From assembly GCA_001940705.1 (NCBI GenBank), contig MEHG01000007.1:1-43001 (forward strand): a stretch of DNA of 43,001 nt. Reading direction: 5' to 3'. Shown in pieces: positions 2,376 to 10,436 of the stretch. Under the pieces are notes generated by a model. It did not search any database and was not told where the DNA came from. It was given only the letters and a program-made list of their open reading frames with translations. This stretch comes from Candidatus Thorarchaeota archaeon AB_25. Its GTDB lineage: Archaea; Asgardarchaeota; Thorarchaeia; Thorarchaeales; Thorarchaeaceae. The position numbers were made by a program, and so were the translations under genes. The first letter of the stretch is position 1. Each line of letters opens with the position of its first letter.

Positions 2376-3449
2376 TTGGGCGAAGATAGAGATTTCATTG
2401 AAACGGTGACTCTCACCACTCCCGAACAGGTACCAACAGAACGAGTGAGTCAGTACTCTGTAGTGAACTTCGCAATGGAGTTTCTCCAATTACTCAGACG
2501 GTACGATGTCCTAAAAGCTCAGATGAGCGAGAGAGGATTGGAGTTTGGAGGGAAAGTTCTGTTGATAGGACCACCTGGTAGTGACTTTGGGGCATTTCCA
2601 CACTTTCTCGCACGGGAGGTGCCAATCAAGATTGTCCGCTTTAAAATGGAGGGCGTTCTTGACGAGAACAAAAGGAGTAGTGATGCACTAAGAGAAGGGT
2701 TTGAGTTTGCTCGAAGGAGTTCCCCTGCGCTACTCTATATCGAGAAATTGGAAACCCTTGCACCGAGAGACTCGGTTCAATCTATAGTACTTCAGGATGA
2801 GATCAAGAGCATTAGTTGGAGTGGGGAAGAAATAATCACCATTGCGGCTACAACAAGACCCGAACAGGTGGATAGAGAGTTGCTCTCATTGTACGATAGG
2901 ACATACATTGTAGAGGGAACCTCTATTGATGACAGAATTCGTGTTCTTGAACAGATCTTGAAGGATCGAGAAGACCTTGATGTGTCAGTAATTGCGGAAC
3001 TGACTGATGGTTGGGGTTTCTCGGATGTGAACCACCTGGCAATGAGCCTATTCATGCAAGAGGTAGCTGAAAGTGGAGAGATGCCAAGAGAGAATCTTGA
3101 GGAACTCATTGAGCAAAGTAGAGTGGCGGCTTTTGGTGACTCAAAATTCCTTGAGGCAGTAATAAGAAAGACTAGGGGCACTCAGCAACCAGAACTTAGC
3201 AAGCTGAGTGAAGAGTATCCAGACGACTTTCTGGATCAGCTCTACCTAATGGCAGTTGGTGAGGATTATGCTGAAACTCAGCGCGTGATAGAGGTCCTGA
3301 ATGAGGGGCTGCCTCTTTCAGTAAAGGACCGCGAGTTTCTGAGCCGACATCCTTTCCTCCTTACAGGTTCTGCTGAAGACCGATTGACACGCCTTCTCAG
3401 AGCCAAAAAGAGTAGCGATAGACTTCATAGAATAATGGGAAGACAATAG
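2376..3449 (+). CDS. AAA-fold protein with degenerate nucleotide-binding site, SMC-linked
   Basis: A 357-residue protein that follows the AAA module of Cdc48/PAN-type ATPases, but the nucleotide-binding residues are gone. The Walker A position reads GPPGSDFG (residues 65-72), with Phe71 and Gly72 in place of Lys-Thr. The Walker B position reads LLYIEKLE, with Glu123-Lys124 in place of Asp-Glu. The sensor-1 Asn is Thr160 in IAATTRP. An Arg-finger-like YDR and a helical lid region remain. Start is TTG at 2376, seven bases after GGGG. Its stop codon abuts the ATG of smc with no gap, and scpA follows, so the three are almost certainly one transcript. I infer a structural or regulatory partner of the SMC complex, not an ATPase. 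I do not recognise a named family. Confidence 0.7.
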   Translation: MGEDRDFIETVTLTTPEQVPTERVSQYSVVNFAMEFLQLLRRYDVLKAQMSERGLEFGGKVLLIGPPGSDFGAFPHFLAREVPIKIVRFKMEGVLDENKRSSDALREGFEFARRSSPALLYIEKLETLAPRDSVQSIVLQDEIKSISWSGEEIITIAATTRPEQVDRELLSLYDRTYIVEGTSIDDRIRVLEQILKDREDLDVSVIAELTDGWGFSDVNHLAMSLFMQEVAESGEMPRENLEELIEQSRVAAFGDSKFLEAVIRKTRGTQQPELSKLSEEYPDDFLDQLYLMAVGEDYAETQRVIEVLNEGLPLSVKDREFLSRHPFLLTGSAEDRLTRLLRAKKSSDRLHRIMGRQ

Positions 3450-6400
3450 ATGAGTGAGACCAAAGTAAATATCGAATCAGTGAGATTGGGAAATTTCCTA
3501 TCCTTCTATGCAGGAAAGGTTGAGTTCGACGAAGGTCTCACTGTACTTGCTGGACCTAATGGCTCAGGAAAGACATCAATCTTCCACGCGTTGAAATTCG
3601 TACTTGGCTCCAATCAAAGAGAGAATCGATACAGTAAGTGGAGTGATTTCATCAGACACGGAGCAAGTGCAGCAGAAGTTGAGATCGCAGTAAGGGTGAA
3701 TGGACAAAGTCGCAAGTTCCTGAGACGCATTGACAGAGATGGTATCCCACGAGCATATGCAGATGGAAGACGAATCAAGGCTGCAGAACACAAGCAAATG
3801 ATCAGTGGTCTAGGTCTTGAAGTTGACAATCCTTTGATATTCATGCCCCAGGAGAGAATCAATGCAATACGAGAGATGGACCCCTTTGAGGTCAGGCGGC
3901 TTGTCGAAGAGGGAACGGGTCTTGATGTACTGAGGGACAGAATTGGACTACAGGAAACCGAAGTCACACAGAGTCGTCAAAAACTTGATGCAGCTCTTGC
4001 GGAGTCAAGAACCGTTGAGCGAGAGCTGGAGTTGTTACAACACGACCTCTCTCGACTTGATAAGAAGAGAGCCTTGCAAGACCAAGAGAGAGAGTTGGAA
4101 AAGGAGCTGAAATGGGCAAGCTTTGACGACCTATCTGATAGAATTCAGCAGACCAAAGATGAGATTGAATCAAAGGAATCAGGTCTAGTTGGTGTGCTGG
4201 AAGAGCAGTCAGTTATTGAAGGACAGATCTCTGAACAAGAAGATGAAACCACGGAGTTAGAAGCTAAATTATCTGGAATGCAGACAGAAATTGGCAGAAT
4301 TGACGCAAGGATTGAGGAGGAAGAGAGGAACCTTGCAAAGCTCGAAGGTGACTCTAAGAAACATGTGTCAGAGCTTCGGCAACTTGAGAATAATGTGAGG
4401 GCTGAGAAACGAAAAGAGGAGAAGTTGAAGGAAGACCTTGAACGAGTTTCGATAGCTCGTGAGCAATACATGGACCAGCAGAAAGTTCTGCGTGAAGAGA
4501 TTGGCGAATTAGAAGAAGAAAGAGCAAGGATACGAGATGAACTCGCTGCTTTTGCTGAGTGGAACACGAAGAGAGCAGAAGCACACGGCAACTACAAGGC
4601 GCTCCAAGCGGAGATCGAGGGTAAGGACCTCCTCATGAGAAGTCTCCGTGAAAGACTCCAGATTGAGGAAGCTGAGCTTCAAGCAATGGAGAGTAAGTGG
4701 TCGCATATATGGGACAAGCTAGAGAAGACAGATGCAAAAGAGCTGGAAAAGAAGAAGTCCCAACTGGAGCGAGAGATTGCATCTCTCAATGAGGACCGAT
4801 TCAGAAAAACAAGCCTTGTGTCTCAACTCCAGAAAGACATTGACGATATTAAAATCAGGCTATCAGAAACCTCCAAACGTATCCCAGAATCTGTCAGAGA
4901 CCTGAGTGACGCAGTTTCAGAGCACAAACTTGAGTCTGTGAAGGGGCCTCTCATCAGTCTGTTCATCGCGGATGATGAAATCTCAGCAGCTGTGGAGGGA
5001 GTCCTCTCGGGAAACCTCCCGCTGGCGTTTGTCACAACAGAGCATTCTGATTATCAGCTTCTCCTCAAGCTGCGAAACAAGGAGGAAGCCCCATCTCCAG
5101 TAATCCTCTTGAGAGATGAAGGAGAACAGGAGAAGCCTGAACTACCTCAAGGGACAGGGGTTGAAGACTGGTTATGGGATAGACTATCAGCGGATGCTGA
5201 GATTCAGTCCCTCTTGAGTAGAGTGTTCGGAGATTTTGTGTTAGTCAAGAACTCTCAGACAGCCTCACGTCTTGCTACAAAGCACAATCTCAGGGTGGTA
5301 ACTCGTGACGGTTCTGTCACAATACCGAGTGATGAACAGATTGTCAGTCACCCAAAGAGTGAACCAACTGGAATGGTGTCTACAGCACCTCTTCAAACGC
5401 GGATGGCAAAGATGGAGAAGGACCTCACAGTAGAACGTAAACGTGTCACAGACATAATGACAAGATTGGAAATTCTCTCGAATGAACGAGAAGAAACAAT
5501 GGATCTGATCAGTCAGATGACTCGTTGGGGATCTACATGGGAACGACGAAGGAAGCTCAATGAGAGTATCCCCGAGCTTGAAGAAAGAATTGTGAACATC
5601 GATGATGAGTTAAAGACGTCACAACTAGACTACGGGAAAGCAGAGAGAAGCCTCAGAAAACTTGACAGTACTCAACCCCCAGAACGTAGTAGGTTAGTTG
5701 GGCAGGAGTCAGCAATCCGGACAAAGCATAGACGCCTTCAGAGTGATTTGACCAAAGTAGACAACAAGGCGCATGCCTCTGAGAAAGATGAGGAACTCAA
5801 ACGCCAGGAACTTAAGAGTGTCAGAGAGAGCGTCACAATGCTCTCTGACAGCCTCACTGACTTACGGGAGGAGATCAAACAGTCAAAGGATGCAGCATCA
5901 TCAATTTTAGAGAAGATAGAGATCATGCGTACGGGTAGAGAGGAAACAGAGAAGAGGCAAACAGAGATCAAAGGGGAACTTGCAGAGATAAGAAACACAG
6001 CTCGATCACTGAGTGAACGATTAGTTGAATTGAATTTACTTGTTAAGAATCGCAGAATCGAAGTTCTTCAATCAAAGAGACAACTGACAAACTGGGAATA
6101 TGACCTAGAATTAATTGTACAGGAACTTCAAGGAAAGAACAAGCCTGACAATATACGTGCTATCGACCTTGTCAGGAGTGAACTTGTGAAGCTACGACAT
6201 ATCCTAGATGACTATCAGGATGTTTCCGAAACCGTAGCACATACAGAGAACCAATTGAAGGGCAGGCTTAGAGAGCTTGTTGAGCGTGTGGCGGAGTTGG
6301 GTGAAGAGCTCGAAGAGGCTGAATCTGCAGTACGAAACATAAGGGAGCAGTATCACAACGGAATGAACGAAACACTTCGAAAAGTAGAGAAAGGTGTAAA

Positions 6401-6818
6401 CGAAGTTCTGGGACGAGTCCAATTCCCAGGCAGTGTCAGGTTTGAACTTGCTCTGAGAGATGGAAAATATGGAGTGGAATTCAAGTCAAGAATTAAGACA
6501 GAAGGCTTTGGGGATATCAGTGCGGGTTCTGGTGGAGAGAGGTCTCTAATAGCGATTGGCTTGATACTTGCATTGCAGAGGTTCAATCCAGCACCAGTCT
6601 ATATCATGGATGAAGTTGACACATTTCTAGATGCAACAAATACAGAACTCGTTAGTCGCCTATTTCATGATGCATCCCGACGTAGCCAGTTCATAGTGCT
6701 CACACCAGCTAAGAGTACACACCTGTTGAAACATGCTGACAAAATATTGGGTGTAGTTTCACCTAATGGTGTTGAACCTTCCATAATAATCGAGAGCCCA
6801 AAATTCAAGGCTCAATAG
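3450..6818 (+). CDS. smc: Chromosome segregation protein SMC
   Basis: 1122 residues with the complete SMC layout. The N-terminal head has Walker A GPNGSGKT (35-42) and a Q-loop FMPQERINAIREM near residue 131. A long Glu/Lys/Arg-rich coiled coil follows, then a hinge globule at about 490-640 (GPLISLFIADDEISAAVEG onward), the returning coil, and a C-terminal head with signature SAGSGGERSL (about 1025) and Walker B YIMDEVDTFLD (about 1051-1061). The ATPase residues look intact. SMC dimers with a kleisin extrude DNA loops and organise and segregate chromosomes. The gene starts immediately after the stop of the pseudo-AAA gene and ends three bases before scpA, indicating translational coupling across the unit. 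Length is normal for archaeal SMC. Rad50 is excluded because there is a folded hinge and no CxxC zinc hook. Confidence 0.96.
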   Translation: MSETKVNIESVRLGNFLSFYAGKVEFDEGLTVLAGPNGSGKTSIFHALKFVLGSNQRENRYSKWSDFIRHGASAAEVEIAVRVNGQSRKFLRRIDRDGIPRAYADGRRIKAAEHKQMISGLGLEVDNPLIFMPQERINAIREMDPFEVRRLVEEGTGLDVLRDRIGLQETEVTQSRQKLDAALAESRTVERELELLQHDLSRLDKKRALQDQERELEKELKWASFDDLSDRIQQTKDEIESKESGLVGVLEEQSVIEGQISEQEDETTELEAKLSGMQTEIGRIDARIEEEERNLAKLEGDSKKHVSELRQLENNVRAEKRKEEKLKEDLERVSIAREQYMDQQKVLREEIGELEEERARIRDELAAFAEWNTKRAEAHGNYKALQAEIEGKDLLMRSLRERLQIEEAELQAMESKWSHIWDKLEKTDAKELEKKKSQLEREIASLNEDRFRKTSLVSQLQKDIDDIKIRLSETSKRIPESVRDLSDAVSEHKLESVKGPLISLFIADDEISAAVEGVLSGNLPLAFVTTEHSDYQLLLKLRNKEEAPSPVILLRDEGEQEKPELPQGTGVEDWLWDRLSADAEIQSLLSRVFGDFVLVKNSQTASRLATKHNLRVVTRDGSVTIPSDEQIVSHPKSEPTGMVSTAPLQTRMAKMEKDLTVERKRVTDIMTRLEILSNEREETMDLISQMTRWGSTWERRRKLNESIPELEERIVNIDDELKTSQLDYGKAERSLRKLDSTQPPERSRLVGQESAIRTKHRRLQSDLTKVDNKAHASEKDEELKRQELKSVRESVTMLSDSLTDLREEIKQSKDAASSILEKIEIMRTGREETEKRQTEIKGELAEIRNTARSLSERLVELNLLVKNRRIEVLQSKRQLTNWEYDLELIVQELQGKNKPDNIRAIDLVRSELVKLRHILDDYQDVSETVAHTENQLKGRLRELVERVAELGEELEEAESAVRNIREQYHNGMNETLRKVEKGVNEVLGRVQFPGSVRFELALRDGKYGVEFKSRIKTEGFGDISAGSGGERSLIAIGLILALQRFNPAPVYIMDEVDTFLDATNTELVSRLFHDASRRSQFIVLTPAKSTHLLKHADKILGVVSPNGVEPSIIIESPKFKAQ

Positions 6819-6821
6819 AGA

Positions 6822-7490
6822 GTGATAATCGTGAATGAGAACGTGAGTCTTGCCGACAGTGTCTTTATCATGGTGCAAGCTGTTCGTGCTGGTGAGATTG
6901 ATCCACTTGAACTCCGATTGACTCAAGCTTACAAAGACCTGCAAGAATTGACAGCAAAGATTGACAGCCGTATTGACATTGATGAGATGTTGAATGAGAT
7001 TCTGAGCACTAAGGTCAGCCGAGTTCAGGAACTTGCCCGAATCCTAGCAGCCCCTGAGATCTATGTGAGTCGATTGAAGGAACTCTCCATGAGGAATCTC
7101 GCAAAGCTGGTGACTTTGAAGCAACCAGTCGTCATACGACATCTTGAGCAGGATTCTCTCGGAGGTGCACTAAATCGAGTTGTGGCATTGATTGATGCAA
7201 TGTCAAAAGAGCCGCCTGAGGACCCAATTCCTAAGATCACATCACTGCCTAATGGATTCGCTCTCGATACTGAAGACTCGGTCTTTCTCGAGGATTTGGA
7301 AAGATTCCTAGCGACAATCCCAGAGGATGAGAAGACCAAGTTCGAAGATCTAGTGATGGATGATGAGTTTGAGTTGTTTTTGAAACATTTCCTCTATATA
7401 GTAATCTTGGTCTCCAAGGGTAGATTACACTACGATCCTGACACACGAGAGTTATGGAGACCCTCTGTTTCAGAGATTGACTTAACTTGA
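6822..7490 (+). CDS. scpA: ScpA-like kleisin subunit of the SMC complex
   Basis: Up to 222 residues, acidic and helical. The N-terminal region (VFIMVQAVRAGEIDPLEL and following) and the C-terminal winged-helix segment (FLYIVILVSKGRLHYD near the end) match the two ends of ScpA kleisins, which bind the neck of one SMC head and the cap of the other. The start may be GTG at 6822 or, more likely, GTG at 6831, placed after the AGAGAGTGAT stretch. It follows smc by only three bases, which strongly supports the call. The middle of the protein, where ScpB would bind, is not distinctive by eye. No scpB lies inside this unit; see the tandem winged-helix gene at 9486. Confidence 0.85.
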   Translation: MIIVNENVSLADSVFIMVQAVRAGEIDPLELRLTQAYKDLQELTAKIDSRIDIDEMLNEILSTKVSRVQELARILAAPEIYVSRLKELSMRNLAKLVTLKQPVVIRHLEQDSLGGALNRVVALIDAMSKEPPEDPIPKITSLPNGFALDTEDSVFLEDLERFLATIPEDEKTKFEDLVMDDEFELFLKHFLYIVILVSKGRLHYDPDTRELWRPSVSEIDLT

Positions 7491-7506: not shown

Positions 7507-7526
7507 CTGCTTGATTGTTCAAGCAG
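7507..7526 (-). terminator. Hairpin plus T-tract terminator of the MFS gene
   Basis: CTGCTTGA and TCAAGCAG form a perfect 8-bp stem around a 4-base loop. On the minus strand the hairpin is followed by CCCTTCTTTCTTTTTTTTC, a T-rich run. The MFS stop codon lies inside the stem. It sits between convergent scpA and MFS genes and would end minus-strand transcription before it enters scpA. Confidence 0.7.
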
Positions 7527-8856
7527 GGACCTCAACGACTAGTTTTTGTGAAATTATTGGCTCATCACTGTCTTTTGAAAGACCAGCATGAAGGTTAAGT
7601 TTAGCAACTGCTATGAAGCCAAGTATTGAAACCATAACTAGAGCAACTGCAGCACCGATCATTGGAGGACCTGTTGCTGCAACAACCTCAGCCCAGACAC
7701 CACCTATTGCCATTCCAACAACTTGCAATGCTGTAAATGCTACACTGAGAAGTGAAAAGACACGTCCGCGTAGCTCGTCCTCCACAAGTTCTTGCATGAG
7801 GACAGTTAGTGGAATATTCAGAATAACATCCACAGCACCAATCATCACCCATGACAGCATTACTGTCACCAGGTCAAATGCCAGGACAAGTGCAAAGACA
7901 GCAACACCTGCGAGAAGCCCAGCGAAAGCAACGAGATAGAGAGGTCTGTCAATCTCTTTCTTACGACTGAAATACACTGCAGCGATAGCTCCTGATGCTG
8001 CTCCTGCACTCAAGACTAGACCAATCTGAGCTGAGCCCAGTCCGAGCTCACCTTCAAGGAAAGGCATGAACAGTGCATTTAGAATACCTGATGAAACTGC
8101 GAGGAGCATCGCGAATACGAATAGGAACGAGAGAATCGAATTGCCAATGACATATCGAGCGCCCTGCTTAATCTGAGCCATCAGTGACTCCTTATTGTCA
8201 AAATCACGATTGGGGATGAGATTCGTTTTGATTCCTCTAAGCGCAACTGCGGAGAACACGAATGCTGCGGAGTTGATAGTGAATGCAAGAAGGTAGTCGG
8301 GTGCAAGGAGCGCAACAAGGATTCCACCAACTGGAGGGACTACTAACTGAACAACCTGGAATGTCATCTGAGATAGGGAGTTGGCTGCGACTAATTCATC
8401 GCTTTCGACGAGATTGGGGATTGATGCACTCCTTGCGGGAAAGAACCATGCATTAGCAGTAGCATAAAGAAATGTGAGTAGGTAAACCCAATAGATTGTG
8501 GGCATGAAAGAGGGGAAGTATATTGTCAGAGGAATAAGGAGAATCGCGACTGCACGGATAACATCAGAAGCGACCATTATCTTCTTGCGGTTCCATTGAT
8601 CGATGTAGACACCAATCGGACCTGCAAAAGCTACAACTGGTAGAGTCTGTGCAATAGCAAGAATAGCCATTGCCATAGCGGACCCGGTCAAGTCGTAAGC
8701 ATAGAACATGAGAGCTAGTGAAGCGATTGCTGTACCAATGTTTGAAACTAATTGACCAGACCATAATAGTGAGAAGTCGCGATGAGCAAGAACTGCTCTG
8801 AATCCCTTCGGATCATCGCGCATCTCTGTATCTTCAACGCCAACGACTTCAGTCAT
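7519..8856 (-). CDS. Major facilitator superfamily exporter (MFS_3 / EntS-like)
   Basis: 445 residues with about twelve hydrophobic helices. After a short acidic N-terminus comes FRAVLAHRDFSLLWSGQLVS, the usual opening of MFS_3-type drug or siderophore exporters. Motif A between helices 2 and 3 reads GVYIDQWNRKK (near residue 80), and the second half has the related EDELRGRVFSL loop. Such proteins are proton-driven effluxers; the substrate is not determinable here. Start ATG at 8856 is preceded by AGGAGA at 8 bases, and this ribosome site overlaps the stop codon of the upstream micro-ORF, suggesting translational coupling. The gene ends in a hairpin/T-tract terminator. Confidence 0.88.
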   Translation of the reverse strand: MTEVVGVEDTEMRDDPKGFRAVLAHRDFSLLWSGQLVSNIGTAIASLALMFYAYDLTGSAMAMAILAIAQTLPVVAFAGPIGVYIDQWNRKKIMVASDVIRAVAILLIPLTIYFPSFMPTIYWVYLLTFLYATANAWFFPARSASIPNLVESDELVAANSLSQMTFQVVQLVVPPVGGILVALLAPDYLLAFTINSAAFVFSAVALRGIKTNLIPNRDFDNKESLMAQIKQGARYVIGNSILSFLFVFAMLLAVSSGILNALFMPFLEGELGLGSAQIGLVLSAGAASGAIAAVYFSRKKEIDRPLYLVAFAGLLAGVAVFALVLAFDLVTVMLSWVMIGAVDVILNIPLTVLMQELVEDELRGRVFSLLSVAFTALQVVGMAIGGVWAEVVAATGPPMIGAAVALVMVSILGFIAVAKLNLHAGLSKDSDEPIISQKLVVEVPA

Positions 8857-9485: not shown

Positions 9486-10010
9486 ATGGGCAGAGTGTTG
9501 GGCACAATGAACGAGTATGCCATCCTTATGAAACTCCTAACGAGGTCAGGAGACCCAATAGGTGCAGGTGTAGATGATATGCTTGATGCTCTTGGTCTTC
9601 CTGAAGATTTGGGCAGAGAGGTCCTGTTCAGACGGTTGAGTGAGTTGCATTCGAGACTAGAACCTGTAGGACTCACAATTAAACACAATCCTGTGAGCAG
9701 CGTGTTCTATGTCGACACACTACATCAATCAAAGATGGAACAAGGAGGCTCTATGCTCCCGGACAGGTTAGCTGCAACTCTCCTTATCGTAATCACACTG
9801 GCATATCAGGAAGGAGGATGGGTCTCTTTTGACCGAGTGCGGGAGTTTCGTAAGAAAAGCCTCAGGGGAGTCATGGAAGACCTAAGGGAGTTGCAGAATC
9901 AGGGATACATTGAGATAGACCAAGCAGAAAAGAGAGTCAGACTAGGTATGCGTGTGCCCTTCGAGATAGACTATGAGGCATTCTTCAGAGAACTTGTAGC
10001 AGAGAAATAG
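9486..10010 (+). CDS. Tandem winged-helix protein, possibly ScpB-like (kite) SMC partner
   Basis: 174 residues. The first half (MNEYAILMKLLTRSG onward) looks like a winged helix ending in a hairpin (GLTIKHNPVSSVFYV). The second half (LAATLLIVITLAYQEGGWVSFDRV, then LRGVMEDLRELQNQGYIEI) reads as another winged helix. Two winged helices in about 175 residues, with a hydrophobic ITLAYQ helix opening the second, is the layout of ScpB and related kite proteins, which bind the middle of kleisins. The SMC-ScpA genes lie 2 kb upstream. This is inference from architecture; a MarR-like regulator is the alternative. The start may be ATG 9486 or ATG 9507. A TATA-like CTTTAAAC near 9470 would favour 9507 with a very short leader. 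Confidence 0.5.
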   Translation: MGRVLGTMNEYAILMKLLTRSGDPIGAGVDDMLDALGLPEDLGREVLFRRLSELHSRLEPVGLTIKHNPVSSVFYVDTLHQSKMEQGGSMLPDRLAATLLIVITLAYQEGGWVSFDRVREFRKKSLRGVMEDLRELQNQGYIEIDQAEKRVRLGMRVPFEIDYEAFFRELVAEK

Positions 10011-10076: not shown

Positions 10077-10436
10077 ATGTCACATAGACGTTCACTAAGA
10101 TTCTCAAAGACGACCTGCCCGATCTGTGGTAGTAAGGAAGTCGCCCGGGACGATAACAAAGGAGACCTCCTCTGCACGAACTGCGGCCACATCATAGTCC
10201 GCACTGAAACTAGAGCAGTTGGCAAGTTCGATATTGCTCAACATCTGAAAAGAAGTGGCAAGATGAACTTTGCCGGACTCCAACAGGTCACAGGAGCATC
10301 AGAGGACAAGCTGTTTGGAGTAATCCGTAACATGCAGGACATGGGACTTCTATCAGAGATTCAAGGACAATACTCTCTAACTAAGAAAGGACAGAGATGG
10401 TATCGTCAAAGACTCGGGCAGGAGTGGGGATACTAG
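10077..10436 (+). CDS. Zinc-ribbon plus winged-helix DNA-binding protein
   Basis: 119 residues. An N-terminal zinc ribbon (CPICGS near residue 14, CTNCGH near 33) has the spacing and DLLCTNCGHII wording of TFIIB-type ribbons. A winged helix follows: LQQVTGASEDKLFGVIRNM as recognition region, then GLLSEIQGQYSLTKKGQRW as wing. It lacks the cyclin repeats of a real TFB, so it is a small transcription regulator and not an initiation factor. It stands alone, with a TATA-like TTTTATCA about 40 bases upstream and a compact GC-rich hairpin at its stop codon. The regulated genes are unknown. Confidence 0.75.
   Translation: MSHRRSLRFSKTTCPICGSKEVARDDNKGDLLCTNCGHIIVRTETRAVGKFDIAQHLKRSGKMNFAGLQQVTGASEDKLFGVIRNMQDMGLLSEIQGQYSLTKKGQRWYRQRLGQEWGY

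Follow-up and report, generated by a model that had tools for sequence, protein, structure and literature searches.

Chromosomes are organised by SMC complexes throughout all domains of life, and what each complex does is believed to depend on its accessory subunits. In eukaryotes, SMC motors are loaded or regulated by accessory proteins without ATPase activity, such as HAWK (HEAT-repeat) proteins and Nse5/Nse6. Outside the SMC field, some AAA-fold subunits of the FtsHi/Ycf2 motor lack catalysis. Here we describe an operon in a 43,001-nucleotide stretch of contig MEHG01000007.1 from Candidatus Thorarchaeota archaeon AB_25 (the window), in which the gene of a degenerate AAA protein (pseudo-AAA) directly precedes that of a divergent second SMC protein (SMC-B). 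The sequence analysis suggests that the accessory subunit predicted for this SMC complex is of a new type. We consider it fairly probable that pseudo-AAA is an obligate, non-catalytic accessory (fourth) subunit of a second SMC complex in Asgard archaea, which comprises SMC-B together with a kleisin and a KITE subunit of its own.

The pseudo-AAA protein

The gene and its landmarks are the following.

2376..3449, + strand: pseudo-AAA protein gene (357 aa, TTG start), encoding an AAA core with lid, then a linker and a C-terminal helical domain (CTD)
2568..2591, + strand: Walker A remnant GPPGSDFG (aa 65-72), with K and T substituted; Thorarchaeia keep GTDF
2742..2747, + strand: Walker B remnant, E123-K124 in place of Asp-Glu (motif inspection)
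2853..2855, + strand: sensor-1 site, T160 in place of Asn (motif inspection)
3213..3446, + strand: CTD (aa 280-357), the best-conserved part, seen only upstream of SMC-B

An initial annotation had proposed a kept AAA fold with dead motifs, and both parts of this description proved correct. The Walker A motif reads GPPGSDFG as compared with GPPGTGKT (Lys replaced by F71, Thr by G72). Walker B is IEK instead of IDE within LLYIEKLE (E123/K124), and sensor-1 is AATTRP instead of AATNRP (T160 for Asn). The protein nevertheless matches PF00004 (Pfam, E=7e-10), and a profile of 31 relatives matches Cdc48/p97 over residues 51-235 (E=1e-36). The AlphaFold model has a pLDDT of 86; its top Foldseek matches are p97 and FtsH (~1e-12), with spastin also found. 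Compared with a classical AAA ATPase of the Cdc48/p97 clade, fold and profile are thus retained, whereas the residues required for function at Walker A, Walker B and sensor-1 are missing. Residues 280-357 form a helical domain behind a low-confidence linker in the model. None of the PDB profile matches listed for the relatives extends into the CTD, and a comparison of the CTD with kleisin and KITE profiles revealed no similarity.

A scan of genome contigs with the window protein matched only close relatives (Candidatus Thorarchaeota metagenome-assembled genomes). Conservation was assessed in a sample of 228 Asgard genomes, 47 of them Thorarchaeial. One homologue each is present in 32 of the 47 Thorarchaeial genomes, and its open reading frame (ORF) is uninterrupted in all 32. 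None of the 32 retains the Walker A Lys, and 31 have Phe in its place, while the Gly preceding this position is Asp in 30/32, which yields a conserved GTDF motif. Walker B Asp-Glu is substituted in nearly all of these proteins and the sensor-1 Asn is kept in one only; an arginine-finger-like Arg is retained in 27/32. Comparison of the window with its nearest relative gives dN/dS values of ~0.065 for the whole of pseudo-AAA, 0.02 for its CTD alone and 0.055 for SMC-B (rough values, as dS is near 1 and near saturation). Judged by these comparisons, pseudo-AAA is under strong purifying selection, strongest at the CTD, and is not a product of chance or decay.

A second SMC system

Three further genes belong to the same predicted complex.

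3450..6818, + strand: SMC-B, a second SMC of 1122 aa and divergent sequence; Walker A, signature and Walker B are intact
6822..7490, + strand: divergent kleisin (ScpA-like) with a C-terminal winged helix, identified by profile chain, model and fold matches
9486..10010, + strand: KITE (ScpB-like) subunit of the SMC-B system, identified by profile chain and gene order

The junctions are as tight as originally noted: the pseudo-AAA stop codon (TAG, 3447-3449) directly abuts the smc start codon (ATG, 3450), and the kleisin starts with GTG at 6822, three bases after the smc stop codon (6816-6818). The accompanying view that this is an ordinary SMC-ScpA operon had to be rejected, because the canonical SMC of the same genome is located on contig C40, followed by ScpA (PF02616, 2e-6) and ScpB (PF04079, 1.5e-33). 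No AAA gene lies upstream of the canonical SMC on C40, and canonical SMC-ScpA-ScpB operons lie elsewhere and without an AAA gene. The SMC-B score against this canonical SMC is only 70 bits (2379 against itself). The window thus holds a paralogous system.

SMC-B matches PF02463 (3.5e-38) and PF06470 (1.2e-8), corresponding to two heads and a hinge. The hinge match is weak (~40 bits, compared with 118 bits for the canonical SMC of this genome). The ATPase motifs GPNGSGKT, SGGE and DE are all retained, so by its motifs the motor SMC-B is alive and its AAA neighbour dead. A tree built from the SMC heads (52 taxa, 331 columns, no outside root) separates the canonical SMCs from all AAA-linked SMCs with a support of 100, and SMC-B proteins with a dead AAA partner form a clade, also with a support of 100. 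An affinity to Smc5/6 was not seen in a single-sequence ranking against the PDB, where prokaryotic Smc scores highest. A hinge search had suggested SMC-B as the sole SMC of Lokiarchaeia. This was rejected, as a further SMC-like ORF of ~1,490 aa was found there. These additional ORFs (~1,485-1,494 aa, e.g. G165:C35:222053-226462) share 30-41% identity with canonical SMC in their heads, are longer in the middle part and were missed by the PF06470 hinge search.

The 222-aa product of the third gene, initially labelled ScpA, has no Pfam match, including to ScpA, and a direct profile match to canonical ScpA fails. The connection to ScpA is made by a chain of profiles from the Thorarchaeial to the Lokiarchaeial kleisin (99.6%), from there to an intermediate (96.0%) and from the intermediate to ScpA (88.8%). 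In the model, the N-terminal region is helical and includes one long helix, and the C-terminus folds as a winged helix. The best matches to kleisins are C-terminal domains of ScpA bound to SMC heads (sequence E 0.015-0.042), and Foldseek returns 4i99_C (prob 1.00, E 0.03). Each of these lines is weak singly, but they fall in the right region; judged by profiles and model together, the gene is a very divergent kleisin.

For the KITE subunit a direct profile match to canonical ScpB likewise fails, and the Pfam ScpB model misses it. Its profile matches that of an intermediate Asgard KITE (98.2%), a member of which, at locus L128, matches PF04079 with 2.8e-13. The KITE gene lies directly 3' of the kleisin gene in many Thorarchaeial genomes and in Lokiarchaeia, whereas a gene of the MFS family intervenes in the genus of the window. 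This transporter gene (7519-8856, - strand) is encoded opposite to its neighbours and occupies the same place in some other genera. On the far side of the KITE gene, 10077-10436 (+ strand) encodes a small protein with a TFIIB-type zinc ribbon and a winged helix (PF08271, 1.9e-8). Many SMC-B loci of Thorarchaeia have it beside the KITE gene, and it may be a further member of the operon.

Linkage across Asgard archaea and the predicted accessory role

In all 32 Thorarchaeial genomes with pseudo-AAA, an SMC gene follows directly 3' on the same strand with a gap of 0-29 nt, and the kleisin gene is next wherever the contig extends that far. Contrary to the initial expectation of a system confined to one lineage, SMC-B is spread across Asgard archaea and was found in 103/228 genomes at E<=1e-40; matches outside Thorarchaeia were confirmed by gene order and, for representatives, by a tree. 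When SMC-B loci were inspected in 13 and then in 57 more genomes, all those with upstream sequence had the same AAA-related gene immediately before SMC-B, and this holds for every SMC-B locus outside Thorarchaeia whose contig leaves space for it. In Lokiarchaeia its product has ~420 aa, and in the member tested Pfam did not recognise an AAA domain. The CTD, however, can be aligned across all members. A profile of the CTD hits exactly one place per genome in 110/228 genomes, and all 110 places lie immediately upstream of an AAA-linked SMC, in agreement with the original suggestion that the protein is locked to smc; no homologue lies away from it. An SMC-B match without a CTD match was seen in two genomes only (G003, G141), in both of which SMC-B lies at the contig end; Thorarchaeial genomes without SMC-B are also without the CTD. 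Two early matches outside this set (G077 C287 and G104 C11) were set aside, as they are AAA proteins with intact motifs and no SMC gene adjoins them in the DNA examined.

The idea of a decaying AAA gene that merely hitch-hikes in the operon is already contradicted by these data. It would account for the loss of all catalytic motifs and for the eroded AAA core of Lokiarchaeia. The gene, however, is intact wherever the contig is intact and under purifying selection similar to that on SMC-B, the CTD is conserved across Asgard archaea, and co-retention with SMC-B is exact.

The tight gene order also bears on a possible function as assembly factor or dedicated chaperone, which would help SMC-B to fold or to meet its kleisin and then leave. 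An AAA gene that always comes first and nearly abuts the next is typical of co-translational assembly, and Cdc48-like ancestry would suit such a protein. On the other hand, the usual engine of a chaperone is gone with the ATPase, and the constraint on the CTD exceeds that on SMC-B, which suits a permanent interface better. We regard a transient chaperone as unlikely. A role as pseudo-subunit or adaptor that brings an active Cdc48-type AAA ring to SMC-B, e.g. for unloading from DNA, appears somewhat less likely still. Its appeal lies in the similarity of the AAA core to Cdc48/p97, in the two-domain AAA proteins of Cdc48 type encoded by the genome and in the arginine-finger-like residue of most Thorarchaeial members. 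Lokiarchaeia, however, have lost that Arg and most of the AAA sequence, yet their linkage to SMC-B is perfect.

An obligate accessory subunit is the explanation we favour on the basis of exclusive single-copy adjacency, joint presence and absence, dead motifs in a kept fold in Thorarchaeia, and purifying selection. In such a complex SMC-B would do all ATP hydrolysis. The CTD would serve as an anchor on the core of SMC-B, kleisin and KITE, and the AAA body could act as a rigid platform which holds DNA or a partner in position, or serves as a gate for the heads. Other SMC complexes have loaders and regulators without ATPase activity, to whose role this one would be comparable. Pseudo-AAA may be a loader, a clamp or a regulator of the heads, or an adaptor to another protein.

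Several observations weigh against this interpretation. Both pseudo-AAA and SMC-B are missing from 14/47 Thorarchaeial genomes (e.g. G042, G009, G025), so not every member of the class requires the system. Synteny may also reflect co-regulation or co-translational chaperoning, and the contact with SMC is a prediction. Coevolution of the CTD was assessed against SMC, kleisin and KITE and exceeds that in within-clade shuffles for KITE and SMC, but the effective number of sequences (Meff) is ~50 and the shuffles retain phylogeny, and we do not count this excess as evidence. Finally, the AAA part is barely recognisable in Lokiarchaeia, which may mean that the CTD is more important than the AAA fold.

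Nine of the 14 Thorarchaeial genomes without SMC-B and its AAA partner contain a canonical SMC, which suggests repeated loss of the pair.

The Walker motifs of more distant members provide information about the history of the protein. The initial annotation implied that relatives would not have intact motifs. This holds for close relatives (32/32 Thorarchaeia), but deep relatives keep Walker A: GK[ST] is found in eight deep members only, from families f14 (with G207), f16, f17 and f27. The Walker B pair of these members is DN, EN, ED or DD and provides no clear catalytic Glu. In f16, f17 and f27 the C-terminal region is different and showed no similarity to the CTD in a profile comparison, so only the AAA core and the position of the gene place these families here. 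Rooting the SMC head tree on the canonical SMCs makes the Walker-A-intact forms diverge first. With all close relatives dead and the deep Asgard relatives retaining Walker A but no clear catalytic Glu, a stepwise loss is indicated, the direction of which we infer because the tree has no outside root. The ancestral AAA partner could probably bind ATP and, as the Walker-A-intact relatives lack a clear catalytic Walker B Glu, probably hydrolysed it poorly. Starting from a Cdc48/p97-type AAA protein, ATP binding would then have been lost in the branch leading to Thorarchaeia and Lokiarchaeia.

Two groups with a kept Walker A have further peculiarities. Loci L090-L093 (f14 and G207) encode a short SMC of ~831-841 aa, and their AAA partner carries an extra N-terminal coiled-coil-like region. 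Loci L128, L129, L131 and L193 (in G128, G129, G224 and G225) encode an AAA-linked SMC of intermediate similarity to canonical SMC; the end region of their AAA partner is weakly similar to part of ScpB (74%).

If the proposed role is correct, an AAA-derived, nucleotide-dead subunit of an Asgard SMC paralogue would represent a new class of regulator, with a traceable series from ATP-binding to dead partners. It would also bear on the SMC complexes of the archaeal ancestor of eukaryotes, to which Asgard archaea are the closest lineage.

Comparison with known systems

A literature search, the coverage of which did not extend to a 2025 survey on the evolution of archaeal SMCs, found no AAA subunit described for an SMC complex of Asgard archaea. 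The closest described system is prokaryotic Smc-ScpA-ScpB, a true copy of which is present in the same genome. Both systems combine an SMC protein with hinge and heads with kleisin and KITE genes in a row, and the ABC motifs of SMC-B are intact. In contrast, SMC-B belongs to a distinct, divergent clade which does not group with canonical Asgard SMC and has a pseudo-AAA gene of its own, and its kleisin and KITE partners escape the Pfam ScpA and ScpB models and are connected to them via the profile chain only.

Wadjet/MksBEFG shares the core of an SMC-like protein, a kleisin and a KITE subunit. This similarity, together with a generic PADLOC similarity of SMC-B (best to the mad3 model), could point to a role in defence or against plasmids, as in modules of the Wadjet/MksBEFG or Lamassu type, with the AAA-like protein as sensor or recruiter. 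PADLOC, however, returned no match to the JetA, JetB or JetD models and none for kleisin or KITE, and no nuclease gene, including JetD/MksG, was recognised in the operon. The system is also single-copy and conserved over deep lineages, unlike mobile defence islands, and a defence function is very improbable. Nor does the locus resemble IetAS: pseudo-AAA has only generic AAA similarity to it (PADLOC, E 8e-6), and it is accompanied by SMC, kleisin and KITE genes instead of a protease gene.

Among AAA proteins, Cdc48/p97 is nearest in fold and constitutes the closest sequence family of the core. Pseudo-AAA differs from these classical ATPases as a single module with a unique CTD and without the Walker A Lys, the Walker B Asp-Glu and the sensor-1 Asn. 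The FtsHi/Ycf2 motor, entries of which are among the fold matches of pseudo-AAA, is similar in that AAA-fold subunits are kept as structure, although it is a chloroplast membrane import motor and pseudo-AAA is SMC-linked. With HAWK proteins and Nse5/Nse6 the analogy is purely functional, as these consist of HEAT or other helical repeats, whereas pseudo-AAA has an AAA core and a helical CTD. We see about an even chance that pseudo-AAA represents a third class of obligate SMC accessory besides HAWK and KITE: a Cdc48-derived, ATP-binding partner that turned nucleotide-independent within Asgard archaea, in a paralogous complex beside Smc-ScpAB.

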